A stretch of DNA of 64,000 bases from Lactococcus allomyrinae (GTDB taxonomy: Bacteria > Bacillota > Bacilli > Lactobacillales > Streptococcaceae). The notes beneath the pieces are model-generated. The model did no database searches and was not told the origin of the DNA. It saw only the letters and a list, made by a program, of their open reading frames with translations. Within the stretch, counting starts at the first letter, position 1; every line of letters starts with the position of its first letter. The stretch is from assembly GCF_003627095.1 (NCBI RefSeq), contig NZ_CP032627.1, forward strand, positions 930,001 through 994,000, read 5' to 3'. The position numbers and the translations under genes are program-made. Of this stretch, positions 22,211 to 58,305 are shown one piece after another.

Positions 22211-22385
22211 AAAGCACCTTTTCAGGTGCAATGTAAAATTAGATGAGATATAGGTAAATTACCTACTATCATTTTACTTTTATATTTGAAATAGGTCAAA
22301 AGAATTGTTTACAAAATCAAAATAAACTCTGTCAGCGTACTGACAGAGTTTTGTCAATTCATTTTAGTTTTTGTCAGTAACTCTT

Positions 22386-23060
22386 TTATCTTTCATGTTC
22401 ACGGAAACTAAAATAATTCCCACCACCGACAATGACATGGTCAATAAACGAAATACCTAAATTATCACAAGAAATTTTTATTTTGTCAGTAAAAGTTCGG
22501 TCTGCGCTACTTGGTTGCAAACTTCCAGAAGGATGATTATGCGCGACAAGTAGACCAACTGCAAGATTTTTTACAGCATGATAAAGAATTTCTCTTGGAT
22601 TAGCCAAGGCATGATTTACAGCCCCTATAAAAATGGTTCGTTTCTCGATAATTTTGTTTTGACCATCAAGATATATGGCAAGGAGATGTTCCTGTTCATA
22701 GTCACGCATCTCAAATGCCAAATTCAAACCAAACTCTTGAGCACTCATCACTTGTCCATGCCTATGGTGTTCTGCGGTCTGAATCCTTTTTCCAAGCTCC
22801 ATCATCGCACGAATTTCGATTGCTTTAGCTTGACCAATTCCTGAAATTTCTTTCAACTCTAAAATAGAAGCATGGCAAAAACGCTCCATCGTCTGAAAAT
22901 GCTGTAAAATTTTTGCGGCAAGTTCAAGCGCTGATAACTTTTTTGTTCCTGTTCGTAGCAAAATAGCAAGTAATTCGCTATCCGACAACTTCTCTGGTCC
23001 TAATAGCTCTAGTCTTTCTCTTGGCAACATGGGATAAGGATTCTCTTTTACTTCGTACAT
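22386..23060 (-). CDS. radC: RadC-family JAB-domain protein
   Basis: A 224-residue protein with N-terminal UPF0758 helices and a helix-hairpin-helix (LKEISGIGQAKAIEIRAM near 65-82), then a C-terminal JAB/MPN domain. The metal motif is H-x-H-P-S-G-x(n)-D, visible as LLVAHNHPSGSLQPSSAD near 172-189, with the upstream Glu-bearing strand. The family is conserved. The DNA-repair role given by the name is doubtful, and its activity is uncertain. It lies between stretches rich in CTGTCAG motifs. Confidence 0.93.
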   Translation of the reverse strand: MYEVKENPYPMLPRERLELLGPEKLSDSELLAILLRTGTKKLSALELAAKILQHFQTMERFCHASILELKEISGIGQAKAIEIRAMMELGKRIQTAEHHRHGQVMSAQEFGLNLAFEMRDYEQEHLLAIYLDGQNKIIEKRTIFIGAVNHALANPREILYHAVKNLAVGLLVAHNHPSGSLQPSSADRTFTDKIKISCDNLGISFIDHVIVGGGNYFSFREHER

Positions 23061-23180
23061 ATCTATTTATACGAGAAATAATATCTTTTGTCACTGACAG
23101 ACTCAAAAATTTACTGACAAAAATCCTGTCAGCACATTCTGACAGGATTCTCTTACTGACAGAAATTCTGTCAGTAATTT

Positions 23181-24994
23181 TTATTCAACGGTAACAGCTT
23201 TTGCGAGATTACGTGGTTTGTCAACGTCAAGTCCACGTTGCATTGAAGCAAAATAAGCAATCAGTTGCGTAGGAATAACCATCGAAATTGCTGATAAGAA
23301 TGGATGGACATTATTGACAACAATTGTATCATCTTGACGTGCTACGCCTTCTTCAACAATGGTAATTGCTGAAGCGCCACGTGCTACTGTCTCCATCACA
23401 TTTCCACGTGTATGCGCTGCAACTTCTTCATTATTAGAAATCAGAGCAAGAACTGGGGTATCTTTTTCAATCAGCGAAATGGTCCCATGCTTTAGTTCAC
23501 CTGCAGCGAAACCTTCACATTGGATATATGAGATTTCTTTAAGTTTAAGCGAAGCCTCCATTGCAACGAAATAATCTTGTTTACGTCCAATATAAAAAGC
23601 ATTTCTTGTAGTTGGCAAGAGTTTAGCTACAACTTCAGCGATTTCTTCTTTTTCAGAAAGCGTAGACTCAATCGACTGAGCAACCAGTGAGAGTTCCTTA
23701 ACAAGCTCAAAGTCGCTCGCCGCCTTATTTCCATCAGCTTCTCCAACCGCTTTAGCAAGAAAAGCGAGTGTTGCAATTTGTCCTGTGTAAGCTTTAGTTG
23801 AAGCCACGGCGATTTCAGGTCCTGCACCAATCAACATCGTGTAAGTCGCTTCACGTGATAAAGTTGAACCTGGAACATTTGTCACGGTCAATGAAGGAAG
23901 ACCAAGCTCATTGACTTTAACCAAAACTTGACGGCTGTCTGCTGTTTCTCCAGATTGAGACAGAAAGATAAAGAATGGCTTTTTAGACAGCAATGGCATA
24001 CCATAACCCCATTCACTGGCAACACCAAGCTCGACTGGCGTAGAAGTCAAAGCTTCCAACATCATTTTTGCACCAAAACCTGCATTATACGATGTTCCAG
24101 CAGCAATGATATAAATACGGTCTGCTTCTTGCACGGCCTTAACGATATTTTCATCAACTTTCATTGCCCCATTTTCATCGGCATAAGTCGCAATCAATTT
24201 GCGCATAACAGCAGGTTGTTCGTCGATTTCTTTGAGCATGTAGAAAGGATAAGTCCCTTTACCAATATCAGAAAGATCAAGCTCTGCTGTGTATCTTTCA
24301 CGTTCGATATGATTTCCCTCATAGTCTGCAACTTCTACATTATCCTTAGTCAAAATAACCAACTCTTTATCATGAATTTCCATGAATTCTGAAGTTTCGC
24401 GAATCATTGCCATCGCGTCAGAGCAGACCATATTGTAGCCTTCTCCCAAACCAATCAGGAGTGGTGATTTATTTTTCGCAACATAGATGATATCAGGTGT
24501 TTCAACATCCATTAGCGCAAAAGCGTAAGAACCTTTAATCACATTCAACGCTTTTTTAAAAGCTTCAAGTGTTGTGAAACCTTCTTCTTCAGCAAATTTT
24601 GCAATCAAATGTACTGCAATTTCTGTGTCAGTTTGCCCCTTGAACACATCACTTGCTACATATTCTTCTTTTAGTTCAACAAAATTTTCAATCACACCGT
24701 TATGGACAAGGACAAAACGACCAGATGTTGAAGTATGGGGTGTGCATTATCCTCTGTTGGTTTACCATGTGTCGCCCAACGTGTATGACCAATTCCTGAT
24801 GTTCCTGCAACATCAATGCCGATTTTACTACGCAAATCTGCAATGCGACCTACTGATTTCACAAGACTACTATTTTTGCTTCCCGTTACAAAAATTCCTG
24901 CTGAATCATAGCCACGATATTCCAGCTTTTCAAGTCCTTGCATCAAAATATCTGTTGCATTACGTGAACCCACAACACCTACGATACCACACAT
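23181..24994 (-). CDS. glmS: Glucosamine-6-phosphate synthase, frame broken by a missing base
   Basis: It makes glucosamine 6-phosphate from fructose 6-phosphate and glutamine, the first step to UDP-GlcNAc and peptidoglycan. The true start is the ATG at 24994 ([12 protein letters not shown]) with AAAGGAG upstream; Cys2 is the glutaminase nucleophile. After EDNAHP the frame fails at the GGGG run 24737-24740 (plus strand). One more C on the coding strand restores [19 protein letters not shown]. The rest is intact: the second frame has SIS domains ([38 protein letters not shown]) and the end [11 protein letters not shown] normal GlmS of about 604 residues results. As the enzyme is normally essential, sequencing error is likely. 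Confidence 0.93.
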
Positions 24995-25036
24995 ATGATT
25001 TTCTCCTTTAAATACCAAATTCATAAATTATACAAA

Positions 25037-25157
25037 ATTGGTATATTCATTTAATTTATCGTTTTTTGAATTACAAATAGCATTATAATATAACTTTATC
25101 ATCATGTCAAGGATTTATACATAAAATTGGTATAACTATTGCAGAAAGATTGGTATA
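25037..25157. promoter_or_regulatory. Three NagR-like operator half-sites around the glmS promoter
   Basis: ATTGGTATA occurs at 25037-25045, 25126-25134 and 25149-25157. AATTGGTATA-type sites are bound by the GntR-family regulator NagR, which controls glmS and nag genes in Firmicutes. One lies in the leader and two lie upstream of the -35 element, suggesting control by glucosamine 6-phosphate levels. The regulator is not encoded in this window. Confidence 0.6.
25082..25110 (-). promoter_or_regulatory. glmS promoter
   Basis: On the minus strand, TTGACA (25110-25105), exactly 17 bases, then TATAAT (25087-25082): a full-consensus sigma-A promoter about 88 bases before the glmS ATG. NagR-like sites lie on both sides. 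Confidence 0.88.
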
Positions 25158-25227
25158 GTTGTTAATTTTATCACAATAAAACCTAGATTCTACAAGGAAA
25201 CTAAGTACTTTTTTTATTTTAAAATTT

Positions 25228-25613
25228 TTAACTTAGTAAGTGCTTGCTGTCTCCGCCCTTTGGGCTACGTTATCGATGCTCGGTCAATGCTCGCTACGCC
25301 ACTAAATAGCAAGCTCTGCTTTTGTTCTACTGCCCTAGGGTCTTAGCGCTTTAGCGATTGCGATTTGAACTTCCGACTTTAGTCGGTTGCCACTGCGACT
25401 AGGTGCTTTGCCTTTTGCTCTTTTTGCTTTAGCACAGCGGGAGCAATGAAGTTGCGAAGAACGTTTGTAGAATGGCATGCAAAGCACGTAGCACCATAGC
25501 AAGCATGGACAACGTAGCGAAGCGGAGGTGTGGCCTCATATCTTTGATGTGAGGTTGTACCCTAACCTTGGCGGAGAAAAAAGAATTCCCCACCAATGAA
25601 GTAATCACTTCAA
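25228..25613. repeat. Intergenic repeat element, long copy 1
   Basis: About 386 bp. The left end is TTAACTTAG followed by a near-palindrome (AGTAAGTGCTTGCT). The right end is the palindrome TGAAGTAATCACTTCA plus A. Inside are short hairpins such as CCGACTTTAGTCGG and CTCATA-TGTGAG. Long copies recur at 30006-30341 and 33082-33532, and short ones at 41717-41769 and 53325-53374. The right end overlaps the stop of the restored PAP2 gene. No coding potential is evident. Confidence 0.85.
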
Positions 25614-26260: not shown

Positions 26261-26471
26261 TTTTTTCTTTCTAATCTTGTTTAATTTATACTAGTTTCAT
26301 TTTAAAATCAGGTAGAATTTTATACCACGGATCCCCCTTTTCAAGTCGCAGGGAGAAACGGCTACTTAACGTGCCCTTGCTTGGCTGATTTTACAGCCTG
26401 TGGCATGAAACGAAACAGACCACGCAAACAGAGTGTGTGCCATGACATTGTTCTTTCATCCTGAAGATCAA

Positions 26472-27926
26472 TTACTCAATATGAGAATTCATAATTGACA
26501 CTTTCTCAAAATGCTCAATCAATGAATAGACCCCTACAAAAAATAAAAGTCCAAAAGTCATAAATTGATAACGTGTCTTTACTTCCCAAATCAATGTATG
26601 AAATAAACTTATACCAAATATGGTCAACAACGCGAATAAGAGGGAATCTTTAGCTAGCATTTTATTGCTCAAAAATCTTAATCCTACGGCAATGAGAAAT
26701 AAAGCTATTAAAGCTTTCGAAAACACTTGAAAAATAAGTCTAATCGCACTGATGTGTTCCAAATAAAACTTTGGTGCAAAAATATAGGTTTTTTGGTAAT
26801 CTGTCAATGTTTGAAAGGTTCCTTCTCGCCACAAAACACCATATTTGACAAACAAATGAAAAATAAAAGTCTCTGGATTATAGCTTGCAAGTCGTGTTGC
26901 AATTCCTGAAACATCTGCACTTTGCGCAGAAGAAAAACCGATATGATGTAGTGTATAACTACGGTCGCAACGATTATACTCTCCAAATTTTTGTTGATTT
27001 AAGCCCATATAAATCCAATGTGCTATCGGAAATTCGTCTGGATTTGTACTATTATAGTGATAGTTTGCATCAAGAACTTTCCCAGCTCCTATCGCTAACA
27101 AAAGTCCTACAATAGATGCAATAAAAAGTTGAACAACTTTTCTATAAACATTTCTCTGTGTTTTATAAGTGAATAGTCCAATTATCACTAATGCGACAAG
27201 AGCAATAATAAGATTTGGTCTCATAAGATAACCATACGCAAAAACTAATGCAATAATCAATAACTTCCACCAGTTCAATCTCCCACATTCGAGGAAAAAC
27301 AATAGAAGCGCTAGAGCAAAAATACTAGCTCCATCAGTATAACCAACTTGAATAGTAAAGCCATAAAATGATGGAACAATGATTGATAATAAAGCCGCAA
27401 AAGCCGCAGCGCGTGGATTCTTATGCCATAAAGTTGCAATAATCAATATTATACTTCCCAAAAGCAAAGCGATATTGTAAGCAAGAAAAATCGGATTAAA
27501 ACCTAGATGTAAAAACTGTCCCACTCTCATGAAGACACTATACAAAATCGTTAATGGAACAAGATTTTTATATTGTAAAATCCATTCACTCCAATTAAAA
27601 TTACCTTGCACGAGCTGTCGAGCCATCGTTATACATATCTGGACATCCCCAAATAATTGCACTCGTATCAGAATGACATTCAATAATGCGCTGACAGCGA
27701 CACCTATTACTGACAGAGCAATGATTCCCTTTAGCTGCCTCACTGACAGCTTTCGCAATCCTCTATCAATGACTCGGAAGAATAAATATAATACGAATAT
27801 TGTTAGAATCACATCAATCGGATTAACAAATCCTGTATCAGTATATGTAACAAAGACCATCATCAAGAGTGAAAGCAACACAAAACCTAATAAGACATAA
27901 CGAGTTACTCTTTCAAATTTAAACAC
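26472..27926 (-). CDS. Polytopic GT-C-type membrane glycosyltransferase (GT39-like)
   Basis: 484 residues from a GTG with GGGA upstream (the in-phase ATG one base off reads into a stop). There are about 11 membrane helices. The early extracellular loop contains LFGDVQICITMARQLVQGNF, matching the D-x-D/E-type acidic loop of GT-C enzymes, and later YGYLMRPNLIIALVAL. Such proteins transfer sugars from polyprenyl-phosphate carriers to cell-wall polymers outside the membrane. It shares the loop pattern HWIYMGLNQQKFGEYNR with the similar gene at 33529 (HWIAMSWSPTNKTGGFNK), so the two are paralogues. It follows the sensor kinase gene in the same direction. Specificity unknown. Confidence 0.7.
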   Translation of the reverse strand: MFKFERVTRYVLLGFVLLSLLMMVFVTYTDTGFVNPIDVILTIFVLYLFFRVIDRGLRKLSVRQLKGIIALSVIGVAVSALLNVILIRVQLFGDVQICITMARQLVQGNFNWSEWILQYKNLVPLTILYSVFMRVGQFLHLGFNPIFLAYNIALLLGSIILIIATLWHKNPRAAAFAALLSIIVPSFYGFTIQVGYTDGASIFALALLLFFLECGRLNWWKLLIIALVFAYGYLMRPNLIIALVALVIIGLFTYKTQRNVYRKVVQLFIASIVGLLLAIGAGKVLDANYHYNSTNPDEFPIAHWIYMGLNQQKFGEYNRCDRSYTLHHIGFSSAQSADVSGIATRLASYNPETFIFHLFVKYGVLWREGTFQTLTDYQKTYIFAPKFYLEHISAIRLIFQVFSKALIALFLIAVGLRFLSNKMLAKDSLLFALLTIFGISLFHTLIWEVKTRYQFMTFGLLFFVGVYSLIEHFEKVSIMNSHIE

Positions 27927-27961
27927 ATCTGCTGTTTCCCTTCAAGCTCTTTTATCATCAA

Positions 27962-27992
27962 AAATTACTGACAGAAATTCTGTCAGTAATTT
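27962..27992 (-). terminator. Terminator built from paired CTGTCAG motifs
   Basis: The arms AAATTACTGACAGAA and TTCTGTCAGTAATTT are perfect (15 bp) around a single A. It lies 8 bases after the sensor-kinase stop, and a T run follows on the minus strand. It is one of many CTGTCAG pairs in the window. Confidence 0.8.
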
Positions 27993-27999: not shown

Positions 28000-29331
28000 C
28001 TATTTTGGACCAAAAACAAGGTGGAAAACAGAACCCTGTGGTAAATTATCAGACACGAAAATCCACGCACCACAAGCCTCAGCATATTGTTTAGCAATCG
28101 CAAGCCCTAGACCAGTTCCAGGAATTTCACTTGACCTTGACTTATCAACGCGATAAAAACGCTCAAATATCTTTTCTTTTTCTTCATCAGCAATTCCTAT
28201 CCCTTCATCAGCTACTGACAAATCAATACTATCGCCTTGTTCTCTCAACCGAACAATAATTTTACTGTCAGCAGGTGAATATTTTCCCGCATTTTCCAAA
28301 AATGCAACGAGAATTTTTTGAATGGCTGCTCTGTCAGCATTGACAGAAAATGATAAATCATTTTCAAAAATAACTTTCTGTGTCAGCGCAGGTTGAATTT
28401 CTTTCACAGTTCTGTCAGTAAATTCGCTTAAATCAAATCTTTCATTTTCCATACTAAAGTGATTCCCTCGTGATATTGTCAATAATTCTTCAATCATTCG
28501 CTTCATCCGTAAAGATTCTTCATCAATATAATTCAATGAATCCTCAACAATTTCTGGATGTTCACGCCAACGCCGTTTTAAAAGCGTGACATGACCACGA
28601 ATCGCTGCAACCGGTGTCCTCAACTCATGTGAAGCATCTGATACAAATTGCTGCTCTTGCTCAATCTTTTGATTAAGTCTTCCTAAAAGTTGATTAAAAC
28701 TCTTTGCTAATCGCTCTACTTCCACTGGAAAATCAGGAACTATAAGTTCACTTTTTTCCATATTTGTCGCCTTAGCAAGCGCTTCAATAGGTTGACTAAT
28801 TCGTTTTGCAGAACGCTTCAAAGCAATCATTGCACCAACATAGACTACAAGCATCGTGATAACAATCGCCACAATTGTCCGCAAAACCATATTCAAAACA
28901 ATAGTAATATCAAGCCATAACTCCGTTTTTATCCCATGAGAAGTGACCGAACTATACCAAAAAACATCGTCGTCCGACAAACTAAAATAGCCCCAGCGCA
29001 AACTTCTGCTCTTTAAAAATTGAGTTGTACCATGACTTTCATCAACGGCTCCTGATGGACGAGTCACTCGAATAAAATCAGAACGCTCTCCATCTTCTTC
29101 ACCAAGCTCAAATTCTTTCCAGTTAATATTTCCGTTTTGAGCCGCTTCATGAACAGAGCTCAATATAGAAGCTCCCTCCGACTCACGAATTTGTAAACTG
29201 CTGAAAGCAACAACAGCAGAAATAACTAGTACATTTAGGAGAGTAAATATCAAGAAAATCCGAGTGGACACTTTAGTGATTAAACTAGCACTTGTTTTTG
29301 ATTTATTATTAACTATTTTTTTTCTGTTCAT
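28000..29331 (-). CDS. Sensor histidine kinase
   Basis: About 443 residues from the ATG at 29331 (MNRKKIVNN), 10 bases after the DUF2127 stop; a GTG further up would overlap that gene. Order: TM1 (about 26-45), an extracellular sensor of about 100 residues, TM2 (about 143-170), a HAMP linker (AKRISQPIEALAKATN), HisKA with the phospho-His in SDASHELRTPVAAIRGH (near 235), and HATPase_c with FLENAGKYSP (N box), DEGIGI (G1) and GTGLGLAIAK (G2). It probably pairs with the OmpR-type regulator at 30338, from which it is separated by a repeat element and the DUF2127 gene. Its signal is unknown; the gene set suggests the cell envelope. Confidence 0.92.
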   Translation of the reverse strand: MNRKKIVNNKSKTSASLITKVSTRIFLIFTLLNVLVISAVVAFSSLQIRESEGASILSSVHEAAQNGNINWKEFELGEEDGERSDFIRVTRPSGAVDESHGTTQFLKSRSLRWGYFSLSDDDVFWYSSVTSHGIKTELWLDITIVLNMVLRTIVAIVITMLVVYVGAMIALKRSAKRISQPIEALAKATNMEKSELIVPDFPVEVERLAKSFNQLLGRLNQKIEQEQQFVSDASHELRTPVAAIRGHVTLLKRRWREHPEIVEDSLNYIDEESLRMKRMIEELLTISRGNHFSMENERFDLSEFTDRTVKEIQPALTQKVIFENDLSFSVNADRAAIQKILVAFLENAGKYSPADSKIIVRLREQGDSIDLSVADEGIGIADEEKEKIFERFYRVDKSRSSEIPGTGLGLAIAKQYAEACGAWIFVSDNLPQGSVFHLVFGPK

Positions 29332-30005: not shown

Positions 30006-30341
30006 TTAACTTAGCAAGCACTTGCTAAGTTAAACAGCACTATCTCCACTTTACTCCGCTGTCGATTCTCGCTATGGCACAAAAGTGCCTTGTCAAAGTC
30101 GCACAACTCGCTAATGGCAGACTCTGCTTTCGTTCTACTGCCCTAGGGTTTTAGCGACTTCAAGGACAGGACCATTTCGCCTTGCGACTTTTAGTCGATT
30201 GCGATTTGAACTTCCGACTTTAGTCGGTTAGTGAAATCGACAACGTAGCGAAGCGGAGGTGTGAGCTCATATCTTTGATGTGAGGTTGTGCCCTAACATT
30301 GGTGGAGGAAAAGAATCCCATCAATGAAGCAATCACTTCAA
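30006..30341. repeat. Intergenic repeat element, long copy 2
   Basis: About 336 bp, same ends as copy 1 (TTAACTTAGCAAGCACTTGCT on the left; TGAAGCAATCACTTCAA on the right). It splits the response-regulator gene from the DUF2127/kinase genes. The response-regulator stop codon (30338-30340) lies inside the right-end palindrome. Confidence 0.85.
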
Positions 30342-33081: not shown

Positions 33082-33532
33082 TTTAACTTAGCAAGTGCGT
33101 GCTATCTCCGCTCTTTGGGCTACACTGTCGATGCTCGGCACGAAAGTGCCAACTCGCTACGTGCTTCGCACGCCGTTCTCCAAACGATCTACGCAACTCC
33201 GTTGCTCCGCTATCCTCTATTCGTATGCAAGCAGAGCTTGCAACGATAGAGGCAAAGCGATAAGATGAAATGGCAAGCTCTGCTTTCGCTCTACTGCTCT
33301 AGGGTATTAGCGACTTCAGGGACAGGATCATTTCGCCTTGCAACTTTTAGTCGATTGCGATTTGAACTTCCGACTTTAGTCGGTTAGTGAAATCGACAAC
33401 GTAGCGAAGCGGAGATAGAGCGAATGGATAACGTAGCAAAGCGGAGGTGTGACCTCATATCTTTGATGTGAAGTTTTGCCCTAACATTGGTGGGGAAGAA
33501 AGAATTCCTCACCAATGGAGTAACCCCTTCAA
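33082..33532. repeat. Intergenic repeat element, long copy 3
   Basis: About 451 bp, the longest copy, with the same ends and inner blocks as copies 1 and 2. It has an extra ~100-bp insert around 33160-33270 and an inner duplication of ACGTAGC[G/A]AAGCGGAG. The stop codon of the GT-C gene (33529-33531) lies in its right end (AATGGAGTAACCCCTTCAA). Confidence 0.85.
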
Positions 33533-35193
33533 TTTTTCGTTAGAATATTATTATGAGTTTTGGACTCAGAAACTATTTTTACTAGATTTACTGTGGCTAA
33601 AGCAATCATGAGTGGAGCAAAATGGTAGAGATAGCGTGAATTTGCTTCCCAAAGAATAAGGAAGATACTTAATCCTACAACAGATAAAGCTGGTACAAAC
33701 CACGGGTTTTTCCAATTTTTCTTATGTGCAAGTAGGAACCAGATTTCTTTCCACATTAGAACGACTAGTGCAATCCAATATAAGGTTTGAGCAGCTTTTA
33801 ACATGAACCAACCTGTGACATTTCCTTCATGATTCGCTCCTATGTCAAGATAATCGAAGTAACGATGAATCATCTGATTTTCATGATAATAAGTATAGTA
33901 AGAACTATTCAAGTCACTGAAAGTCCAAGTGTAGCCGAGTTTTCTACCAATCTGTCTAATAATTCCTAGTGGTCCCATTTTTTTAATATTGTTTAGAAAA
34001 AGCTGAGTATCCGCTTCTTTTTTCGCTTCATAGGTAGGGAAAGATTCTGAGTAAAGACGGATTTTTTTATTAAATCCTCCTGTTTTATTGGTGGGTGACC
34101 ATGACATCGCAATCCAATGCATTAATGGCAAATTATGTCGCTCATTGGCTTGTTCAGAAAATGCAGGCTCGCTTGCAATTGTTGTTTTTACTAACTCATG
34201 TCCTCCTGCAAACAAAACAATAAATAGGGGTAAAACAATGAGAAGCTGCTTCCATTTTTTATTAACTGCAAGAAAGATAAATCCGGCAATAATAACAATT
34301 ACTGCGGTTGGTTTAAACTCATATCCGACTACTCCGATTAAACTTGCAAAGAAATACCATAAAATTTGTTTGGATAAGCGACTTGATTTTACAGCATAGA
34401 TGAAAAATAGTGCTGCAAGTGCAACGAGAGGCAGTGTCAGTGTGTCACTATAAAGCTGAGCTCCATAAAAATAAAAAGGAATGAAACCAACAGCTACAAA
34501 ATTGTAAAGAAGGGCTTGTCTTTTGCCACTCAAATTTTTGACCAACAGAGAAGTACTGCTTATTCCCACTGATGTAAACAATGCTGATACAGCTGTCACT
34601 GCCCAAACTTTTAGTTGGAGGTTGTCAGCAAAAGGTGCAAAAACACGATTGAATAAAATTCCTAAAAACTGATTATTTGGATATCGTAAAAAATATCCTA
34701 ATCTGGAAGCTGTGTTTGGCAGACTAGCAAAAGAATGACCTTGTAATTCTGTTGTTGAATTAAAAATTACAAAATAATCCCAAGCGTGCGGACTATCAGG
34801 TACATGAATCATAAACAGAAATGGAAGAGCAAAAGTAATGACAGCCATCCCCCAAAAACTGATACGATAAAATTTATCTACTTTATTTTCTGTCAGTATA
34901 CTGACAGAAACGTCGTGGACGGTTTTTTTATCTGTCGATTCACCGATTTGCGTTGGACGCTTTGAACTGACAGAATAATCAGTGGAAAACAGGTGTTTTG
35001 CCAGTTTAAAAATACCTACTAAATAAAAAACTGTAATTAAAAAAATAATATTCCCGAGTAATAACCCTCCCCATTGATTGGCTCCCCATTCTGTTGTTAA
35101 AGCAACTGCTATTCCATTTGCGACTAAAAAAGCCACTCCAAAAATAATCAACCAAAGTTTTTTCTTGATAATATTCATTTTTTTGTTTTCCAT
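33529..35193 (-). CDS. Polytopic GT-C-type membrane glycosyltransferase
   Basis: A 554-residue protein with about 12 helices. Features: an early extracellular loop (PHAWDYFVIFNSTTELQGHS) with the acidic residue expected in GT-C enzymes, RYPNNQFLGILFNRVF, YEFKPTAVIVIIAGFIFLAV, and a long extracellular loop before the last helices (HWIAMSWSPTNKTGG). Similar in plan to the gene at 26472. It probably takes the sugar from the polyprenyl phosphate made by the GT2 enzyme downstream. Near residue 95 the coding sequence contains a perfect CTGTCAG palindrome (34887-34910) that encodes part of VSVSILTENK in a cytoplasmic loop, apparently an in-frame insertion. Confidence 0.75.
   Translation of the reverse strand: MENKKMNIIKKKLWLIIFGVAFLVANGIAVALTTEWGANQWGGLLLGNIIFLITVFYLVGIFKLAKHLFSTDYSVSSKRPTQIGESTDKKTVHDVSVSILTENKVDKFYRISFWGMAVITFALPFLFMIHVPDSPHAWDYFVIFNSTTELQGHSFASLPNTASRLGYFLRYPNNQFLGILFNRVFAPFADNLQLKVWAVTAVSALFTSVGISSTSLLVKNLSGKRQALLYNFVAVGFIPFYFYGAQLYSDTLTLPLVALAALFFIYAVKSSRLSKQILWYFFASLIGVVGYEFKPTAVIVIIAGFIFLAVNKKWKQLLIVLPLFIVLFAGGHELVKTTIASEPAFSEQANERHNLPLMHWIAMSWSPTNKTGGFNKKIRLYSESFPTYEAKKEADTQLFLNNIKKMGPLGIIRQIGRKLGYTWTFSDLNSSYYTYYHENQMIHRYFDYLDIGANHEGNVTGWFMLKAAQTLYWIALVVLMWKEIWFLLAHKKNWKNPWFVPALSVVGLSIFLILWEANSRYLYHFAPLMIALATVNLVKIVSESKTHNNILTKN
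34887..34910. repeat. Perfect 24-bp CTGTCAG palindrome inside a coding sequence
   Basis: TTTCTGTCAGTA followed by its exact complement TACTGACAGAAA. It is read through as codons within the GT-C gene. The same palindrome (ATTCTGTCAGTA core) stands between genes at 36755-36778. Confidence 0.9.
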
Positions 35194-36206: not shown

Positions 36207-36259
36207 ATTTTTCTCTTTCTTTTAGAAAATTAATCCTGTCAGTACAGACAGAAGATTTG

Positions 36260-36727
36260 TCAGTTCGTCCTATTTGTTTTCTCATCTTTATCAAGCAAAA
36301 TAGCGACAAACAAGACAACAAAACCTACTGACAAAAGACTGTCAGCAATATTAAAAATTGGAAAATTCATAAAATCTGTTTGAAACATATCTACGACAAA
36401 TCCTTGTCGAACACGGTCAATGAAATTTCCTAAAGCACCTGAAATAATCAGAGTCAGACCAAAAAAATACCAATTTTGCTCCATTTTTTTCCACAAAAAA
36501 TAAGCAGCTACAATCAATACAATTGGTGTCAAAATCAGAAAAAACCATTGCTGCCCCTCAAACGAAGACCAAGCTGCTCCATTATTTTGCAGATAAGTCA
36601 AACTCATAATCCCAGGTAAAAAATTTTTAACATGTCCCAAAGGAATATTTGTGACAACCCAATGTTTAAAAAGTTGGTCCAACAAAATGCCAACTGCAAT
36701 AATGACAAGTGAAAGTATTTTTTTCAT
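36260..36727 (-). CDS. lspA: Lipoprotein signal peptidase II
   Basis: A 155-residue integral membrane aspartic peptidase with four helices. The two catalytic Asp are in GALGNFIDRVRQG (near 112) and FPIFNIADSLLS (near 130). LLDQLFKHWVVTNIP (near 17) and LTYLQNNGAAW are the other conserved blocks. It cleaves the signal peptides of prolipoproteins such as the siderophore-binding protein in this window. It is upstream of rluD. A perfect CTGTCAG palindrome (36755-36778) precedes the gene. Confidence 0.94.
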   Translation of the reverse strand: MKKILSLVIIAVGILLDQLFKHWVVTNIPLGHVKNFLPGIMSLTYLQNNGAAWSSFEGQQWFFLILTPIVLIVAAYFLWKKMEQNWYFFGLTLIISGALGNFIDRVRQGFVVDMFQTDFMNFPIFNIADSLLSVGFVVLFVAILLDKDEKTNRTN

Positions 36728-36768
36728 AAGTTATATTGTACCATAACAACGTCCATTCTGTCAGTATA

Positions 36769-36910
36769 CTGACAGAATGATTAGCATAGCTAATCATTCT
36801 TTTATCCGCTGATTCAACGCTCAATTCAATCGCGTTGAACTGACAGAATGATTAGCACAGCTATTCATTTTTTTACCCGCTGATTAAATATTCATTTCAA
36901 TCGCGTTGAA
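36769..36910. repeat. 71-bp imperfect tandem repeat (two units)
   Basis: Unit 1 (36769-36839) and unit 2 (36840-36910) both begin CTGACAGAATGATTAGCA and end TCAATCGCGTTGAA, with some changes between them. A third CTGACAG starts right after. It fills the gap between lspA and the alkyltransferase-like gene and ties the CTGTCAG motif to a duplicating unit. Confidence 0.85.
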
Positions 36911-36950
36911 CTGACAGAATTTTCCTTCAAAAAATACTGACAGGAAACTG

Positions 36951-37421
36951 TCAGTATGATTTTATCAGTGATTTCTCATATTCCAAAATAGAAGCTTTAA
37001 TATCTTGGCGATTATTTTTTCCCATAAATCCACCGAGTGTCCCGTCTTTTCTTGTCACTCGATGACAAGGTAAAATCACAGGTAGCGGATTCCGCGCTAA
37101 TGCCTGTCCAACAGCTTGTTGAGCGCCTTTTGATCCTACACGTTCAGCCATTTCCTGATAAGTAATTGTTGTTCCAGCTGGAATTTTGGGAAGTTCTAAC
37201 CACACTTTTTGTTGAAATTCTGTTCCAAAAGTCAACCGAAAATCAGCATCATCTGTTTCGTCAGTGCTGACAGAATCCTTTAACTTTTCTGTCAGTGCTG
37301 ATAACTGTTCGTAAGAGACGACTTCATGTTCATCATCAAAAAATACTTCAATAATTTTTCCACCAACATCTCGTTCTACCGATAATTTAAACTTTTCTTT
37401 CATTTTTGAACTCACTTTCAT
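36951..37421 (-). CDS. Alkylated-DNA cysteine alkyltransferase family protein (copy 1)
   Basis: A 156-residue protein of the MGMT family. The methyl-acceptor Cys is in PVILPCHRVTRKDGTLGGF; the DNA-recognition helix region is FQQKVWLELPKIPAGTTITY and AVGQALARNPLP. Such enzymes take a methyl or alkyl group from O6 of guanine onto their Cys and are used up. The start overlaps the end of the second family member upstream by 35 bases (an inner Met at 37403 would shorten this), so both are on one transcript. The N-terminal part is diverged from the standard enzyme. Confidence 0.82.
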   Translation of the reverse strand: MKVSSKMKEKFKLSVERDVGGKIIEVFFDDEHEVVSYEQLSALTEKLKDSVSTDETDDADFRLTFGTEFQQKVWLELPKIPAGTTITYQEMAERVGSKGAQQAVGQALARNPLPVILPCHRVTRKDGTLGGFMGKNNRQDIKASILEYEKSLIKSY

Positions 37422-44229: not shown

Positions 44230-44419
44230 TATTTTTTCTCTTTACTTGTAAATTTTCTGCTGACAGAATTGTTGTCAATAGATTTTTTATCCTTGATTTT
44301 GTGGTAAGTACTAACAAAATCACTTTTCTATTCTATCACATTTTTCAACTTAAAAAAACCGTAAAAAATTACTGACAGATTGCTGTCAGTAAACTAAACA
44401 TTATGATTTGAACATAATA

Positions 44420-44866
44420 TTAAAACTTCAAAAGCATATTAATATGCTTTATCCCATCTTCATAAAAGGGTTCGGAATCTGCTACAAAGCCAAGCGAAGC
44501 ATAAAAGTCTTTAAGATAATATTGCGCTTCAATTTTGACGGCAGACTTACCAACTTTCTGTAAGTAATCTAAAACTTCTGTCAGTAACTGACGTCCTAAA
44601 TGCTGATGGCGAAAATCTGGATGGACAAGGACGCGTCCAATAGATGCCTCTGCAAATGAAACACCTTCAGGCAACAAACGACAAAGTGCTAAAATTTCCC
44701 CTGCTTCATTTTCAAGCCACAAATGTTTTGCAACTTGGTCTTTTCCATCAAGCTCCTGATAAGGACAATTTTGTTCAACCACAAAAACGGCCGTTCGCAG
44801 ACTCAACAATTGATAAAGCTCTGTCGTTGACAGTTCATCAAAAGTTTTTATTTTCCATTCCATCAT
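44420..44866 (-). CDS. ElaA-like GNAT acetyltransferase
   Basis: 148 residues. The ElaA family starts WKIKTFDELSTTELYQLLSL, RTAVFVVEQNCPYQELDGKD (near 27-46, a strongly conserved block). The acetyl-CoA loop is SIGRVLVHPDFRHQHLGRQL near 86-105. The end DFYASLGFVADSEPFYEDGI matches the family. Acetyl acceptor not established. GGAGGAGA precedes the ATG. It is followed (44230-44400) by CTGTCAG pairs and no gene. Confidence 0.9.
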   Translation of the reverse strand: MMEWKIKTFDELSTTELYQLLSLRTAVFVVEQNCPYQELDGKDQVAKHLWLENEAGEILALCRLLPEGVSFAEASIGRVLVHPDFRHQHLGRQLLTEVLDYLQKVGKSAVKIEAQYYLKDFYASLGFVADSEPFYEDGIKHINMLLKF

Positions 44867-44916
44867 TCTCCTCCAATTCTGTCAGCACTGACAGCGTGCT
44901 AAAAACTTATACTGAG

Positions 44917-44995
44917 ATAATCCGTTGTAGACACCGATAACGGATTGACGTGCGGTCTAACTTTATGGCGCAAATTTGGCACCACAACTACAATA
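44917..44995. repeat. CCGTTGT repeat, copy 1
   Basis: It starts with the inverted pair CCGTTGT...AACGG, then TCTAACTTTATGGCGCAAA. About 80 bp, similar along its length to 50677-50757. It lies between the ElaA-like gene and the exonuclease gene. No coding potential. Confidence 0.7.
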
Positions 44996-45041
44996 CTGCC
45001 TTGCGTTTCGGTAAACATCACTTTCTGAAAGTTAACTGGTA

Positions 45042-45881
45042 TTAGTTCTTACCATTCGACTGATTCTCGTCCAAATCCGTCAGAAAATTTGCTTTTTGCA
45101 TTTCCTTCAGAAAATCTGAATGAATCGCCAACTTTTCATCATTATATAAGGTAATACTCAAGCTTGAGCCTGTTGAGTATTCACGCTCTATCCGAATTCC
45201 TGAAATATCAAACTGCTGCCATATTCGTTCTGAATCTTGACGATAATAAACCAAGTTTTTTGTAATTGGCAAATTTAATTTCCTACGAAGTGTGTCAGTG
45301 ATTTCATCTGAAATATCACCAAATAAATCCATTTGCTCAGGCTCTGTCAGCATACTGACAGCTTTAGGTTGTTCAATTTCTTGAAGATATTGATACAATT
45401 TTGCTGTCACTAAACAATCGTTTAAAGCGTCATGCGAACGTAAATCATTCATTTCTAAAAAGTCTTTAAAACTTTCCAGAGCATAACTTTTCATCTGTAG
45501 AAGTCGCTTGCTCTCAGCTAAAGTATCATAAACGCGAAATGCCTCAACATCAGTAATTGCGCAGTCAATAATTGCTTGATAGAGAAAGCTGATATCAAAA
45601 GGAGCGTTGTGTGCTACCAATAGATGACCTTTGATAAAATCTAAAAACTTCGGTAAAACCTGTTCAATCACTGGCTGACTCAACAAATCTGCTGGTCTGA
45701 TTCCTGTCAGTTGTGTAATCTCTGACGATACATAAGAACGCTGATTTTTAACCAATTGATTGAAGCGGGCTAACTCAACATCATTTTCGTCATATTTTAC
45801 TGCGCCAATTTGAATAATCTCATTTTTCTGAGCAGAGAAACCCGTCGTTTCAAAGTCAAAAACAACATATTTTTCAGACAT
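45042..45881 (-). CDS. DnaQ-like DEDDh 3'-5' exonuclease
   Basis: 279 residues. The ExoI motif is YVVFDFETTGFS (residues 5-16), ExoII HNAPFDISFLYQ (near 88), and ExoIII with the catalytic His LRSHDALNDCLVT (near 150). The nuclease domain occupies about 1-175, and a C-terminal ~100 residues of unknown fold (NLVYYRQDSERIWQQFD) follow. This layout matches the stand-alone epsilon-like exonucleases of lactobacillales rather than PolC. Probable role: nucleic-acid processing or proofreading; not shown by the sequence. It is in the parE-to-parC series. Confidence 0.88.
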   Translation of the reverse strand: MSEKYVVFDFETTGFSAQKNEIIQIGAVKYDENDVELARFNQLVKNQRSYVSSEITQLTGIRPADLLSQPVIEQVLPKFLDFIKGHLLVAHNAPFDISFLYQAIIDCAITDVEAFRVYDTLAESKRLLQMKSYALESFKDFLEMNDLRSHDALNDCLVTAKLYQYLQEIEQPKAVSMLTEPEQMDLFGDISDEITDTLRRKLNLPITKNLVYYRQDSERIWQQFDISGIRIEREYSTGSSLSITLYNDEKLAIHSDFLKEMQKANFLTDLDENQSNGKN

Positions 45882-45919
45882 TTTTCCCCTTTAATTATTT
45901 TTTTCTTTTCACTTTTATG

Positions 45920-46426
45920 TTAGTGCTTCTTATCGAAAACTCCTATTTTTTGATTGAGCGCAAGCTCCAAAGAAGATAGATTTACGCTGCAACCGTTCAA
46001 CTTTTCAAGCGACAGCACCGTGATAGGAATCACATAATTTTTGTACACTCTAAAATATCGTCCCTGATAAGTTTTCAAGTTTTTGATTTGAACCGTAAGC
46101 ACTGAACTTCTTGAACTTACAAGATTGAACATTTGAATATCCTTGTAAAAGACTATAATCTGTTCACTTGAAAATAGTCCTCTTATGTCATAAATCAGCC
46201 GTTCATCAAGCAAAGTAAGACAACTTTTATCTTTTACGGTACGATAAAGCAGTCCGTAATAACCAATGCCAAGCAAACAAACAAGCCAAAAAAGAATCAA
46301 AAGCGATAAACGATTTATAAAAAGCAGAGATAATCCAATCGCCAATACAAAAATCCACCAACTCCACCAGAAAGTCATGATTGAATAATTAATCGTATAA
46401 GGAAAAGTAATTTCGTCTTTTTTCAT
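45920..46426 (-). CDS. EbsA-like membrane protein
   Basis: About 168 residues from the ATG at 46426 (MKKDEITFPYTINYS); the longer frame has no better start. Two membrane helices near 17-60 (IMTFWWSWWIFVLAIGLSLL; LLILFWLVCLLGIGYYGLL) are followed by a soluble PH-like C-terminal part (SCLTLLDERLIYDIRG, FYKDIQMFNLVSSRSS). This resembles EbsA of streptococci and enterococci, a protein of unclear role. Family assignment is by layout and moderate. It lies between parE and the exonuclease gene in the same orientation. Confidence 0.55.
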   Translation of the reverse strand: MKKDEITFPYTINYSIMTFWWSWWIFVLAIGLSLLFINRLSLLILFWLVCLLGIGYYGLLYRTVKDKSCLTLLDERLIYDIRGLFSSEQIIVFYKDIQMFNLVSSRSSVLTVQIKNLKTYQGRYFRVYKNYVIPITVLSLEKLNGCSVNLSSLELALNQKIGVFDKKH

Positions 46427-46533
46427 CAGTTGTTTCACTTTCTTGGTTACTGAACAATGCATTTTTTGACCAAAAATAAGTCTGTCAGTACTGACAGAAG
46501 GTCATTCGTGATGATGACCGCTAAAAAACTCCC

Positions 46534-52990: not shown

Positions 52991-52994
52991 ATGA

Positions 52995-53024
52995 GTTCTG
53001 TCAGTAAATATTTACTGACAGAAC
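52995..53024 (+). terminator. nrdE terminator, perfect CTGTCAG palindrome
   Basis: GTTCTGTCAGTAAAT followed by its exact complement: a 30-base perfect palindrome starting 5 bases after the nrdE stop. Further CTGACAG motifs follow to 53130. The 350-base gap to nrdF also contains a short GATTGT-type microsatellite (about 53205-53232) and a TATACT element near 53300. Confidence 0.7.
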
Positions 53025-53324
53025 TTAAATCTTTTACTGACAGAATTAACATTTAAAACTTATCCCTGAAACTCATTTACAAATTAAGCGACAATAAAAA
53101 TTACTGATAGATTTCTGTCAGTAAAAAAAAAGAAAGGAACTAAGTTCGTCATCTCTACTCAAAGGATTTATACAAGTTCTCCTAATAAAATCTTATTGAT
53201 TTTTATTAATTGTAATTGTGATTGTGATTGCTATATCTTTATAATCAATTAAACAAAATCCTATGAAAAAGAGTAACCTAAAACGTTAGACATTAGGTTA
53301 TACTATGGACTTCAAAATATCATT

Positions 53325-53374: not shown

Positions 53375-53415
53375 TATATTTTGAACTTCATAAAAGTCGG
53401 ACTTACATTTTCATT

Positions 53416-54393: not shown

Positions 54394-54402
54394 AAAATCC
54401 TC

Positions 54403-54444
54403 ATAATATAAAAAACTTACCCTAGAGTAAGTTTTTTATATTAT
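54403..54444. terminator. Bidirectional terminator between nrdF and the glycosyltransferase
   Basis: Perfect 18-bp arms (ATAATATAAAAAACTTAC and its complement) around CCTAGA, with A and T runs on both sides, so it serves both convergent genes. Confidence 0.92.
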
Positions 54445-54452
54445 CATCTTCT

Positions 54453-55736: not shown

Positions 55737-55742
55737 ATTAAA

Positions 55743-56264
55743 TCAGCATCCTTTTTTCTTAAATTCCTCCTCTATCAAATGGTTTGGGAGATTTTGTTCT
55801 GGTGCAACGATGTAATATTGTATGCTTTCACGAAATTCTTGTTTCCCAAAGCGTGCTGTATAAATCTCATTCAACACTTTTGTACGATTTTCAGCCTGAA
55901 ACTCGTTATATAATTTCTTCTTAGCAAAGACGTGCTCTTCCATATAATTATTATGAATAAGAAACATTGTACTAATAAGAATAACTCCAAGCCCACCTTT
56001 GAGCAGTACGGAAAATACAATGTGTTCAAATACACGTCCTTCCGCAAAACTCCAATGAAAAATAAAATCCCAAAAAGGCTTAGAAGTAGAGGAATTTATT
56101 GCAACCAAGATCGGATAAATCAATATTATCCATGAAAAAAGAACAGCCAAAGTTTGTCGAATTTTCAAACCCCAGTTTCCTTCCTCAAAGTATCTATCTT
56201 CAATCAATTCCATATTTAATAGATCTTTTTTTGATTTATTTAGCATATTATGATTAACTTTCAC
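55743..56264 (-). CDS. PgaD/IcaD-like partner membrane protein
   Basis: 173 residues from a GTG; Met7 and Met18 are other possible starts. Two helices (IRQTLAVLFSWIILIYPILVA near 36-56; LLKGGLGVILISTMFLIH near 87-105), then a long soluble tail (AKKKLYNEFQAENRTKVLNE). Two helices plus a short cytoplasmic tail is the layout of PgaD/IcaD accessory subunits, which enhance the PgaC/IcaA synthase, and the gene sits six bases before that synthase. Sequence similarity to PgaD is not evident by eye, so this is inferred from context and topology. Confidence 0.6.
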   Translation of the reverse strand: MKVNHNMLNKSKKDLLNMELIEDRYFEEGNWGLKIRQTLAVLFSWIILIYPILVAINSSTSKPFWDFIFHWSFAEGRVFEHIVFSVLLKGGLGVILISTMFLIHNNYMEEHVFAKKKLYNEFQAENRTKVLNEIYTARFGKQEFRESIQYYIVAPEQNLPNHLIEEEFKKKGC

Positions 56265-56406
56265 TACACTTTTTATTCTACAACTCTATACAAATATCTA
56301 TTTTTACTATTTTACAAAACAGTATTTTACAAGTTTATTATACTTCTTTTGAAATCATTTTGCAACATTATGGCAAATAACATAATTTAAGTATGCGTTT
56401 TAGACA

Positions 56407-56446
56407 CAAAAAAAACAGATAAGTCATTTGACTTTCTGTTTTTTAT
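56407..56446 (-). terminator. ftsX terminator
   Basis: The arms AAAAACAG-AAGTCA and TGACTT-CTGTTTTT pair just past the ftsX stop (56452), with a T-rich run on the minus strand. The preceding gap 56265-56400 shows no gene. Confidence 0.78.
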
Positions 56447-56451
56447 TTTTA

Positions 56452-57387
56452 TTAGATTTTAAGGAAACGTCTCATTGACAAGAGCGCTCCGAATGACCCA
56501 ATGAGTACACCAATAACAACCATAATACCAACAATTTGTGGAATAAAAGTTGATGGTGGAAGCATTGATAAATCTTGCGTTTTAAGGCTTGGTGTGAAGC
56601 TCACAAACGCGAGTCTATAAAGCCAGATAATCAAAATACTTGGTACGATTGACCCGAGCAATCCAACCCAAGCTCCTTCTAAGAAGAAAGGCCAGCGAAT
56701 ATAGCCGTTTTTAGCTCCCACTAAACGCATAATCTGAATTTCTCTTTGACGCGACATAATCGTAATTCGAATCGTATTCGATATCAGGAATACAGCAACA
56801 AATAGCAAGAGTCCAGCAGCTGCAAGTCCCCAAGTCCGAACTACTCCAGCAATGTCAAAAATACGATTTGTATTTGCACCACCGTAGGTTGCTTTTTCAA
56901 TTCCTGAAATCTTCGATATTGCTGCTGTCACGGATTTTACATGCGCAGGCTTATCTGCTTCAACAATATAAGCATCATACAATGGATTGGCATCACCTTG
57001 GAAAAGATTCCAAGTTTTACCGAGTGTCGCAGTAAGTTGTTTTAACTGCTCTTCTTTACTTGAGAACGTAATTTTTTTAACATTTGGTACTTCTTTGATT
57101 GCGTTGTAAACCTTTAAATGAGCAGGGTTTTCAATCATTTTCCCTTTATCTTTAGGGTCCTGAATCTTAGCTTCTTGGTCATGAACATCCAATTTCATAT
57201 ATGCTACAACACGAACATTATTTTCAATATCTGAAGCTAATTTCGTCGTGTTCATAATCAGTGAGAGGAAAAGCCCCACTAAAACAAGGGTAATCATAAC
57301 TGATGATACCGCTGCAACGGTCATCCAACCATTACGCTTTAAGTTTTTTAATGACTCACCAAGGTGCTTGAAGAAATTTCTAATCAT
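56452..57387 (-). CDS. ftsX: Cell division protein FtsX
   Basis: 311 residues from the ATG at 57387 (MIRNFFKHLGESLKNLKRNG), which overlaps the ftsE stop; the longer open frame would run deep into ftsE and is rejected. Four helices: the first near 22-45 (VAAVSSVMITLVLVGLFLS), then an extracellular domain of about 130 residues (ECL1), then three C-terminal helices (AAAGLLLFVAVFLISNTIRI). The MacB-like fold lacks ATPase. With FtsE it forms a complex that activates peptidoglycan hydrolases at the septum. Confidence 0.95.
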   Translation of the reverse strand: MIRNFFKHLGESLKNLKRNGWMTVAAVSSVMITLVLVGLFLSLIMNTTKLASDIENNVRVVAYMKLDVHDQEAKIQDPKDKGKMIENPAHLKVYNAIKEVPNVKKITFSSKEEQLKQLTATLGKTWNLFQGDANPLYDAYIVEADKPAHVKSVTAAISKISGIEKATYGGANTNRIFDIAGVVRTWGLAAAGLLLFVAVFLISNTIRITIMSRQREIQIMRLVGAKNGYIRWPFFLEGAWVGLLGSIVPSILIIWLYRLAFVSFTPSLKTQDLSMLPPSTFIPQIVGIMVVIGVLIGSFGALLSMRRFLKI

Positions 57388-58072
57388 CGTAGCCGTAAAC
57401 TCCTTCCTCTTGGTCGCGGACAATACGTCCGTTTTCAATCGCAATAACACGGTGTTTCAATGTATTAACGATTTGGCTATTGTGAGTTGCCATCAAAATG
57501 GTTGTCCCTTGAAGATTAATTTTTTCAAGCAAATTCATGATTTCCCAAGAATTTTCAGGGTCTAGGTTCCCTGTTGGTTCATCGGCAATCAATACTTTTG
57601 GTGCATTAGCAATTGACCTTGCAATCGCGACACGTTGTTGTTCCCCACCAGAAAGTTCATTGGGAAATGAACGAATCTTATGTTTCAATCCGACAAGGTC
57701 AAGCACTTCATTGACACGTTTCTTGATTTCACGTGGACGTTTTCCGATAACTTCCATCGCATAGGCGATATTTTCATAAACTGTTTTCTTAGGCAAAAGT
57801 TTATAGTCTTGGAATACAACACCAACAGAACGACGCAACATTGGTACATCACGACGTCTTAATTTTGCTAAATCATATTGCGCAACTTTTCCAGAACCTC
57901 GGTCAATCTTCAACTCACGATAGAGAAGTTTAATAAATGTAGATTTCCCAGCTCCCGAGGGTCCAACAATATAGGTAAATTCTCCTGGCTCAATTTCGAG
58001 AGAGATATTACGCAAAGCTGTTGTCCCATTAGAATATTTCTTGGAAACATTACTTAGTTTTATAATACTCAT
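57380..58072 (-). CDS. ftsE: Cell division ATP-binding protein FtsE
   Basis: A 230-residue ABC ATPase. Walker A VGPSGAGKSTFIKLLYRE near 37, signature NELSGGEQQRVAIARSIA near 137, Walker B VLIADEPTGNLDPE near 159, switch His in ILMATHNS. All residues are intact. It overlaps ftsX by eight bases (GATGATTAG arrangement). Pairs with FtsX in cell division. About 230 bases separate it from prfB; the gap includes a CTGTCAG pair near 58145 and 58262-58283. Confidence 0.96.
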   Translation of the reverse strand: MSIIKLSNVSKKYSNGTTALRNISLEIEPGEFTYIVGPSGAGKSTFIKLLYRELKIDRGSGKVAQYDLAKLRRRDVPMLRRSVGVVFQDYKLLPKKTVYENIAYAMEVIGKRPREIKKRVNEVLDLVGLKHKIRSFPNELSGGEQQRVAIARSIANAPKVLIADEPTGNLDPENSWEIMNLLEKINLQGTTILMATHNSQIVNTLKHRVIAIENGRIVRDQEEGVYGYDD

Positions 58073-58305
58073 AGTACCTTTCCTGTATAAGATTTGATTG
58101 ATTAGTTACCATCTCGTAAGAAAAATGATTATCTTGCGATGCTGTCAGCAACTGACAAACAAAAATATATTTTAATCACTATGGACGTTCTAATTATATC
58201 AAATAAAGAACGCTTTTGGTAGCTCTTTTTTTATCTAAAATTTACTTTGATAACAAAAAAGTTACTGACAGATTTCTGTCAGCACTTACAGAGCATTGTT
58301 CACTT

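Follow-up and report, generated by a model that had tools for sequence, protein, structure and literature searches.

The question raised by the window analysed here, a 64-kb stretch at positions 930001-994000 of the 2.70-Mb chromosome of Lactococcus allomyrinae (genome 2.76 Mb), is why one seven-base word, CTGTCAG (CTGACAG on the other strand), should be crowded into part of it. The window was found to contain 46 exact copies on both strands against a dinucleotide-shuffle expectation of 4.2 (standard deviation 2.0), and none of 100 shuffles reached 46. The copies were confined to 22329-58282; no copy was found in 1-22 kb, where 1.5 were expected, or after 58.3 kb. A preliminary description had counted about 45 copies in 22.3-58.3 kb and had called 1-22 kb and 58.3-64 kb free of the motif; both statements were confirmed, and the observation as a whole understated the case. 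A genome-wide count had been named there as the test that might refute the excess, and the whole genome was found to contain 2,201 copies (1,065 forward and 1,136 reverse), the reversed word taken as control giving 171 (94 and 77), so that CTGTCAG is a genome-wide feature and its excess is not confined to one region. The reading to which we give an even chance is that the word serves across the chromosome as a self-signature like a DNA-uptake sequence, which would have spread through natural transformation and been partly reused in terminators; the uptake function, which we infer, is its weakest link.

The placement of the word was analysed in a sample composed of the window and 20 stretches of 20 kb (464 kb, about 17% of the genome), with mechanical gene calls and open reading frames (ORFs) counted from at least 80 amino acids (aa). 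The sample was found to contain 402 copies against 39.9 expected, with the strands mostly mixed within the 20-kb stretches; 236 copies were in ORFs (0.61/kb) and 166 outside them (2.15/kb), and 88 of the 126 isolated sites lay inside ORFs. Isolated copies favoured T or TT on the 5′ side of the word and T/C followed by A/G on the 3′ side, the usual context being TT-CTGTCAG-YR, and the most enriched one-base variants were CCGTCAG (3.6-fold) and TTGTCAG (2.7-fold). Within genes both orientations were present on the sense strand (125 and 103 copies), and the commonest translations were Leu-Thr-Glu (49 of 228), followed by LSV and SVS (23 each) and LTG and LSA (21 each). The intergenic density was 2.58/kb between co-directional genes (121 in 46.9 kb), 1.91/kb between convergent genes (30 in 15.7 kb) and only 0.65/kb between divergent genes (9 in 13.8 kb); regions holding promoters alone are thus motif-poor, which is evidence against a promoter regulator.

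The excess was found to belong to the chromosome, the word being at chance level and not enriched in the sampled plasmid, phage and island DNA (34 copies in 397 kb against 27.5 expected; the sum omits 20 kb of contig C2 of the motif-free genome G003, with 2 copies). Near-expected counts were given by the 20 kb sampled of the 54.9-kb own contig C2, by the own contig C3, by two small contigs of genome G007 and by 50-kb parts of three lactococcal plasmids, and four Lactococcus phages contained 17 copies against 9.3 expected. Between 200 and 280 kb of the own chromosome, three samples of 20 kb contained 2 copies against 4.6 expected; the genes found there give this region the look of an integrated element, being those of an IS605-type TnpB, an AAA_10 ATPase, a protein with a SpaA fold and an intein-like helicase. 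The last, at about 246.7-250 kb, reads as a ResIII/SNF2-type helicase with Hint and LAGLIDADG-like domains, an intein-like insertion within the island. Six rpsL loci contained 0 to 4 copies, a count that favours no reading.

Such a distribution would also be given by a restriction-modification, defence or recombination signal, for example an orphan methylase site or a Chi-like protection site that enriches the word in self DNA, and the near-palindromic core CTGWCAG would suit it. The word CACGCGC/GCGCGTG, which we take to be the lactococcal Chi, was itself enriched in the own-genome sample (57 against 13 expected). Chi is a one-strand directional signal, and CTGTCAG was found to have no overall strand excess genome-wide, so that the Chi-like alternative of the preliminary description appears to fare worse. 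Phages and plasmids were at or slightly above expectation, with no avoidance of the word, and the helical-register arrays described below are not expected of such a signal, which is considered improbable.

Outside the own genome the word was found to be restricted to a few relatives. Among 335 Streptococcaceae genomes it exceeded five times the control in eight, seven Lactococcus and one Streptococcaceae metagenome-assembled genome (MAG), and among 295 sampled Lactobacillales in the own genome only. In samples of 10.6 to 464 kb per genome, CTGTCAG was enriched in the own genome, in its nearest genome G011, in G007 (probably L. lactis; L. cremoris is its sister in the ParE tree), in L. cremoris, L. 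hircilactis and L. taiwanensis, and in the MAG. Related words were found elsewhere in the genus: G012 contained the dialect YCGTCAG (CCGTCAG 57 against 6.2 expected, TCGTCAG 75 against 9.7), genome dk101 the dialect YTGTCAG (TTGTCAG 75 against 19.0, together with CTGTCAG and CCGTCAG) and L. nasutitermitis the word CTGTCAA (114 against 17.7), followed by the less certain CTGGTCA of L. termiticola (60 against 13.2) and a weak, 2.7-fold word enrichment in L. fujiensis. Most dialect cores retained GTCAG, and the CTGTCAA of L. nasutitermitis retained CTGTCA. No abundant word was found in five samples of 16-120 kb from the garvieae clade, which is monophyletic in the ParE tree. An excess of CTCAAGG in the stretch L043 of a Streptococcaceae MAG was rejected as a dialect, being a tandem array with a 9-bp period.

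The sites were found to be well kept between near relatives. The alignable part of the sample was compared with fetched stretches of G011, which has about 95% DNA identity to the own genome (the ParC is 85% identical to that of L. taiwanensis), giving 95.8 kb aligned with 5.3% substitutions. With sites near block ends omitted, and with insertions large enough to break the alignment invisible, 75 of 85 own sites were identical in G011, five differing by one base, four by two to four bases and one by a shifted gap; in the other direction 75 of 87 G011 sites were identical, with 11 one-base differences and one one-base gap. Transitions made up 14 of the 16 single changes, and within the aligned segments no insertion or deletion of a whole site was found. 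When the block-end cut was dropped, 47 of 52 sites in coding DNA and 35 of 41 in intergenic DNA were kept, against 62% of 3,623 coding and 46% of 334 intergenic control words of the same composition. The DNA within 60 bp of the sites was more divergent than that elsewhere (93.1% against 94.8% identity), which has also been published for the DNA-uptake sequences of Neisseria, in the part of the source consulted (PMC2397512). Against G007 (79% identity) 11 of 28 sites were kept, compared with 16% of control words, so that the places of the sites turn over on the species scale. Against G012 only 2 of 28 CTGTCAG sites were kept, below the 16% of the control, so that the change of dialect was accompanied by a turnover of places; in the garvieae-group alignment 0 of 5 sites were kept against 9% of control words.

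Frequent pairing of the copies had been reported in the preliminary description, and 28 of the 46 copies of the window were found to form 14 inverted pairs in which the two starts lay no more than 22 bp from each other; the five palindromes named there (23156-23178, 27962-27992, 36755-36778, 46481-46498 and 52995-53024) were all recovered, exactly or within a few bases. Among 75 head-to-head neighbours within 60 bp, the starts were separated by 9 bp in 30 and by 11 bp in 31, so as to form palindromes of 16 and 18 bp, and 14 of 47 tail-to-tail neighbours within 60 bp were at 11-12 bp. The pair geometry was lineage-specific. Head-to-head pairs with 2-4 bp between the copies numbered 341 in the own genome, 351 in G011, 343 in L. 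hircilactis and 173 in dk101 and just 16 in G007, 10 in L. cremoris and 13 in L. taiwanensis; tail-to-tail pairs with 2-5 bp between numbered 111 in the own genome, 124 in G011, 2 in L. hircilactis, 0 in dk101, 94 in G007, 46 in L. cremoris and 144 in L. taiwanensis.

Some inverted pairs at gene ends look like terminators, for which the word would have been reused: four or more consecutive T were found no further than 14 bases away, on one side or both, at 35 of 47 close intergenic inverted pairs against 1,863 of 6,300 random intergenic places (30%), and four pairs folded as hairpins of -8.5 to -22.5 kcal/mol. That the word is merely a favoured stem of intrinsic terminators or RNA hairpins would account for these two results. 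It would not be expected to give isolated copies in ORFs, both orientations on the sense strand, or phasing at 10.4 bp across several turns with coding DNA included, and as a sole explanation it is the most improbable of those weighed here.

Larger repeats were also found around some copies. A two-hairpin unit of 66-71 bp contained TTCAATGCG...CATTGAATCGGCGGATAAAAG followed by a variable second hairpin, with CTGTCAG at its bounds and CTGTCAGTATACTGACAG at its end; it occurred singly or in tandem (34890-34973 and 36764-36917 of the window, and also in stretches of the sister genome), and its second stem, read by eye, varied among the copies and stayed paired. Other mosaic intergenic repeats, with modules such as CTATCTCCGCCCTTTGGGCTACG and GAAGTCAAGACTTATTCAGTGGGAG, did not contain CTGTCAG; they were present at 25236-25608, 30014-30281 and 33090-33526 of the window and in many alignment gaps, being present or absent between the sisters and in some cases with apparent short target duplications. 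The inserts at the alignment gaps of the window were mostly of this mosaic kind, and some contained the word (two-hairpin units and one pair of copies in G011).

Copying of a short mobile palindrome around the genome, or of an element of the repetitive extragenic palindromic (REP) or miniature inverted-repeat transposable element (MITE) type, could be read from the two-hairpin unit, which is bounded by CTGTCAG and forms tandem arrays differing between the sister genomes. The unit accounts for a small part of the sites (one pattern matched 4 times in 464 kb of the own genome and 6 times in 400 kb of the sister; a looser pattern gave 19 lines and caught other sites too). The site differences inside aligned segments were substitutions or a single-base gap and not site-sized insertions, more than half of the sampled copies were in ORFs, and the main dialects were one- or two-base changes. 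This alternative, also named in the preliminary description, fares worse for these reasons and is very improbable; both it and the terminator-only reading are already disfavoured.

A regularity was also found in the spacing of the copies. With TTGTCAG counted as a copy, distances in the range of 16-75 bp were found to cluster at multiples of about 10.4 bp in the coding DNA (158 pairs, resultant 0.52, Rayleigh p ~2e-19) and non-coding DNA (104 pairs, p ~1e-13) of the own genome, in the coding and non-coding DNA of 16 stretches of G011 (p ~2e-17 and 5e-13; four window-covering stretches were excluded, and some of the others are homologous to own stretches) and in G007 (47 pairs, p 6e-10), all of these p values being generous because the period was the best of 60 tried and every pair within a cluster was counted. 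With the period fixed at 10.4 bp and the exact word, 159 pairs of the own genome (16-106 bp, against 32 expected at random) gave p 4e-17. A stricter test used adjacent pairs without shared 12-mers and a null of 20,000 draws that shifted the distances by multiples of three bases. The observed register was reached in none of the draws for own coding DNA (n=40) and G011 coding DNA (n=32), in 24 for G011 non-coding DNA (n=17), in 405 for own non-coding DNA with the exact word (n=19) and none with two variants included (n=31), and in 172 for G007 (n=12). The mean phase was about a whole turn in both orientations in the own and G011 coding sets. Among nine other words of the own genome no register was found in the five with at least 15 pairs, the other four having 0-5 pairs.

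The dialect of G012 was found in the same register (69 pairs, p 1e-10; 29 de-duplicated pairs, 2 of 20,000; 14 coding pairs, 83 of 20,000). Phasing was weak in L. nasutitermitis (CTGTCAA; p 0.013 for all pairs, 0.089 de-duplicated), in dk101 (0.033 and 0.044), in L. taiwanensis (6 pairs, 0.03) and in the MAG L041 (8 pairs, 0.005), and the words CAGCACC of L. fujiensis and CTGGTCA and GACCGTC of L. termiticola gave 0 or 1 close pair each. The simplest meaning of the 10.4-bp phasing is that double-stranded DNA is read from one face by a protein able to hold several copies.

This phasing would suit an architectural protein well, and the nucleoid site listed as an alternative in the preliminary description is the main rival, a substantial minority possibility that is less probable than a signature of the uptake kind. 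It would hold that a lineage-specific nucleoid or chromosome-organising protein binds the phased arrays cooperatively and that the sites are kept by selection for folding, segregation or the marking of core DNA. The register in both orientations and in coding DNA, the species-specific pair geometry, the clustering above random and the presence of competence genes where the motif is absent all speak for it. It would require selection on about 2,000 sites, many of them in genes where residues such as Leu-Thr-Glu are fixed, and no candidate protein was identified, no search having been made for one. The dialects would require the protein and most of its sites to change together; the same would apply to an uptake receptor, though drive would help there.

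For the uptake-type self-signature, the fuller proposal is tentative and is given somewhat less than an even chance: lactococci would take up self DNA sequence-specifically by means of a membrane or pilus array that reads phased words, the word and its pair geometry having split into dialects that limit gene exchange, to our knowledge the first such system in Gram-positives. Double-stranded DNA carrying the word would be bound by a competence protein located on the cell surface or in the membrane, the first candidates being a minor pilin of the ComG set or ComEA. Copies separated by one or more whole helical turns lie on one side of the helix, and several receptor heads might thus hold one fragment. 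The word would spread because DNA with it would be taken up and recombined more often, by molecular drive, by selection for the uptake of kin DNA or by both, and some inverted pairs would later have been reused as intrinsic terminators.

The status of the competence genes favours neither side. In 18 genomes of the genus comGB and CoiA were found in 18 and comEC in 17; comEC is open in the own genome, and the motif-free genome G003 contained short frames for comEC (386 aa) and CoiA (184 aa). ComGD, ComGF and ComGG matches were found 3′ of comGB in 10 of 11 fetched regions. The comG region was itself rich in CTGTCAG, with 10 copies in 8 kb of the own genome and 12 in G011. In L. hircilactis the usual place of ComGC-GG, directly 3′ of comGB, is taken by a 503-aa ORF resembling a serine recombinase, which suggests that an element has integrated into the comG operon. 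An ORF of about 150 aa beside comG was present in 8 of 11 genomes inspected, all eight with the motif or a dialect, and was not seen in two garvieae-clade genomes or in the rearranged locus of L. hircilactis; it was rejected as a receptor, as it reads like a MarR/ZitR-type regulator (by reading, with no family search). ComEA, read by eye in 6 of 10 genomes, showed nothing telling. In the parts of PMC11244767 consulted, L. lactis and L. cremoris were transformable when ComX was made, whereas one starved strain could not be transformed with linear plasmid DNA; these results are at most compatible with a sequence preference.

Several observations weigh against sequence-specific uptake. The own comGB (1910402-1911324) reads as two frames, being one 376-aa frame in the sister G011, the comEC frame of L. 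cremoris NBRC 100676 is short (473 aa), and no ComGD, ComGF or ComGG match was found in the 8 kb fetched around comGB of the motif-rich L. hircilactis. The garvieae clade contained comGB, CoiA and, in 4 of 5 genomes, a full-length comEC, yet no abundant dialect in the samples, so that competence genes do not imply the motif. No receptor was found, the ComEA and ComG genes having been studied by inspection only. The phages TP901-1 and Tuc2009 contained 6 copies each against 2.7-2.8 expected. The copies were clumped (coefficient of variation of the cluster gaps 1.44), unlike uptake signal sequences (USS), which are evenly spaced. If plasmids without the word entered well in the published ComX-induced transformations, the word would be a preference at most. 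Pair geometry and helical clustering were not found described in the consulted parts of the work on DNA-uptake sequences (DUS) or USS, and a search of the literature, with incomplete coverage, gave no description of helically phased uptake sequences.

Within the window the copies were found in the following places, no strand being assigned unless stated. The first is an intergenic head-to-head pair, CTGTCAG-N4-CTGACAG, at 22329-22346, followed by a five-copy cluster at 23094-23174 in the interval between a 224-aa ORF and glmS, with the palindrome 23156-23174 (TTACTGACAGAAATTCTGTCAGTAA with its flanks). Three copies on one strand (minus) lay at 27691-27749 within the ORF 26472-27926, followed by a tail-to-tail pair between ORFs at 27968-27986, with a terminator-like hairpin of -17.0 kcal/mol, and by three copies on the plus strand at 28265-28418 within a histidine-kinase gene. 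A head-to-head pair and one further copy at 34890-34973 flanked one two-hairpin unit; these copies fall in the 5′ part of the ORF 33529-35193 (minus strand, no NCBIfam match) as called, the real start of which may be further in. An eight-copy cluster at 36236-36954 contained the palindrome 36758-36775 and, at 36764-36917, a tandem of two two-hairpin units with CTGTCAG at their bounds. A tail-to-tail pair at 37267-37295, the starts of which are separated by 22 bp or about two helical turns, lay in an ORF. Between parC and parE 11 copies were present at 44260-46497, within or beside small genes, among them one for a DnaQ-like exonuclease, with pairs at 44372-44389, 44879-44894, 45344-45361 and 46482-46497. 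Four copies 3′ of nrdE at 52998-53121 contained the long palindrome 52998-53021 (-22.5 kcal/mol), followed by three copies at 58142-58282 with a tail-to-tail pair at 58265-58282. The motif-free stretch 1-22000 contained FecCD iron-uptake genes, an Rgg-like regulator, and phosphotransferase-system and aldolase genes; against the sampled sequence of G011 about 2.2-12.8 kb was unaligned and 12.8-22 kb aligned, 1-2.2 kb being outside the sample. A phage search with 1-12.8 kb of the window gave no match, and an Rfam scan of the window gave 0 matches.

If the uptake-type reading is true, Lactococcus, a dairy and laboratory genus with dialects, would allow it to be asked what the reader of the word is and why kin DNA is preferred by some species; the helical register is an unusual clue to the build of that reader. 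It could explain the patchy transformation of lactococci and supply a tag for genome editing, and absence of the motif may map acquired islands. If the reader were a nucleoid protein, the word would be a very dense and specific chromosome-marking system, of which no description was found. The statement of the preliminary description that no such element was known in lactococci agrees with the literature searched: no report of CTGTCAG in Lactococcus was found in titles and abstracts, most subscription papers being outside this coverage, so that an earlier report is possible.

Four kinds of known system can be compared. The lactococcal Chi is likewise a short word over-represented in the own-genome sample, but CTGTCAG is about seven times as common there (402 against 57) and shows no strand excess overall. 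Repeats of the RUP, BOX and REP type are also palindromic, with intergenic copies and hairpins, whereas CTGTCAG is a 7-bp word altered by small mutations, present in ORFs as well and split into dialects. The best-described cases of sequence-specific DNA uptake are those of Neisseriaceae and Pasteurellaceae, and the USS of H. influenzae is, like CTGTCAG, high in copy number; we know of no uptake sequence established in Gram-positives. The consulted parts of PMC12040237 and PMC12236230 are consistent with this, and Neisseria was termed an outlier among transformable microbes in 2025 (PMC12040237). The likeness to uptake sequences pointed out in the preliminary description was partly supported: it survived most of the genomic tests made, on copy number, self-DNA distribution, conservation, gain and loss by small changes, dialects and terminator-like pairs, and the competence genes gave no decision. 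The USS of Pasteurellaceae, with the candidate receptor ComN/PpdA, share the excess of close opposite-strand copies and the terminators, putative in the case of CTGTCAG (PMC1852404), and the dialects (PMC12616744); the word and the phylum are different, and phased arrays were not mentioned for USS in the parts of these sources consulted. The features of CTGTCAG taken together match the sources, as far as consulted, on the DUS of Neisseriaceae, read by the minor pilin ComP, which are likewise present in thousands of copies on the self chromosome, atypical in integrated elements and conserved, with permissive flanks, lineage dialects sharing a core and pairs forming terminators, a use that is putative for CTGTCAG (PMC3630211, PMC2397512, PMC1852404, PMC7371117). 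Unlike DUS, CTGTCAG has a Gram-positive host, a 7-bp near-palindromic core (10-12 bp in DUS), helically phased clusters and a species-specific pair geometry.

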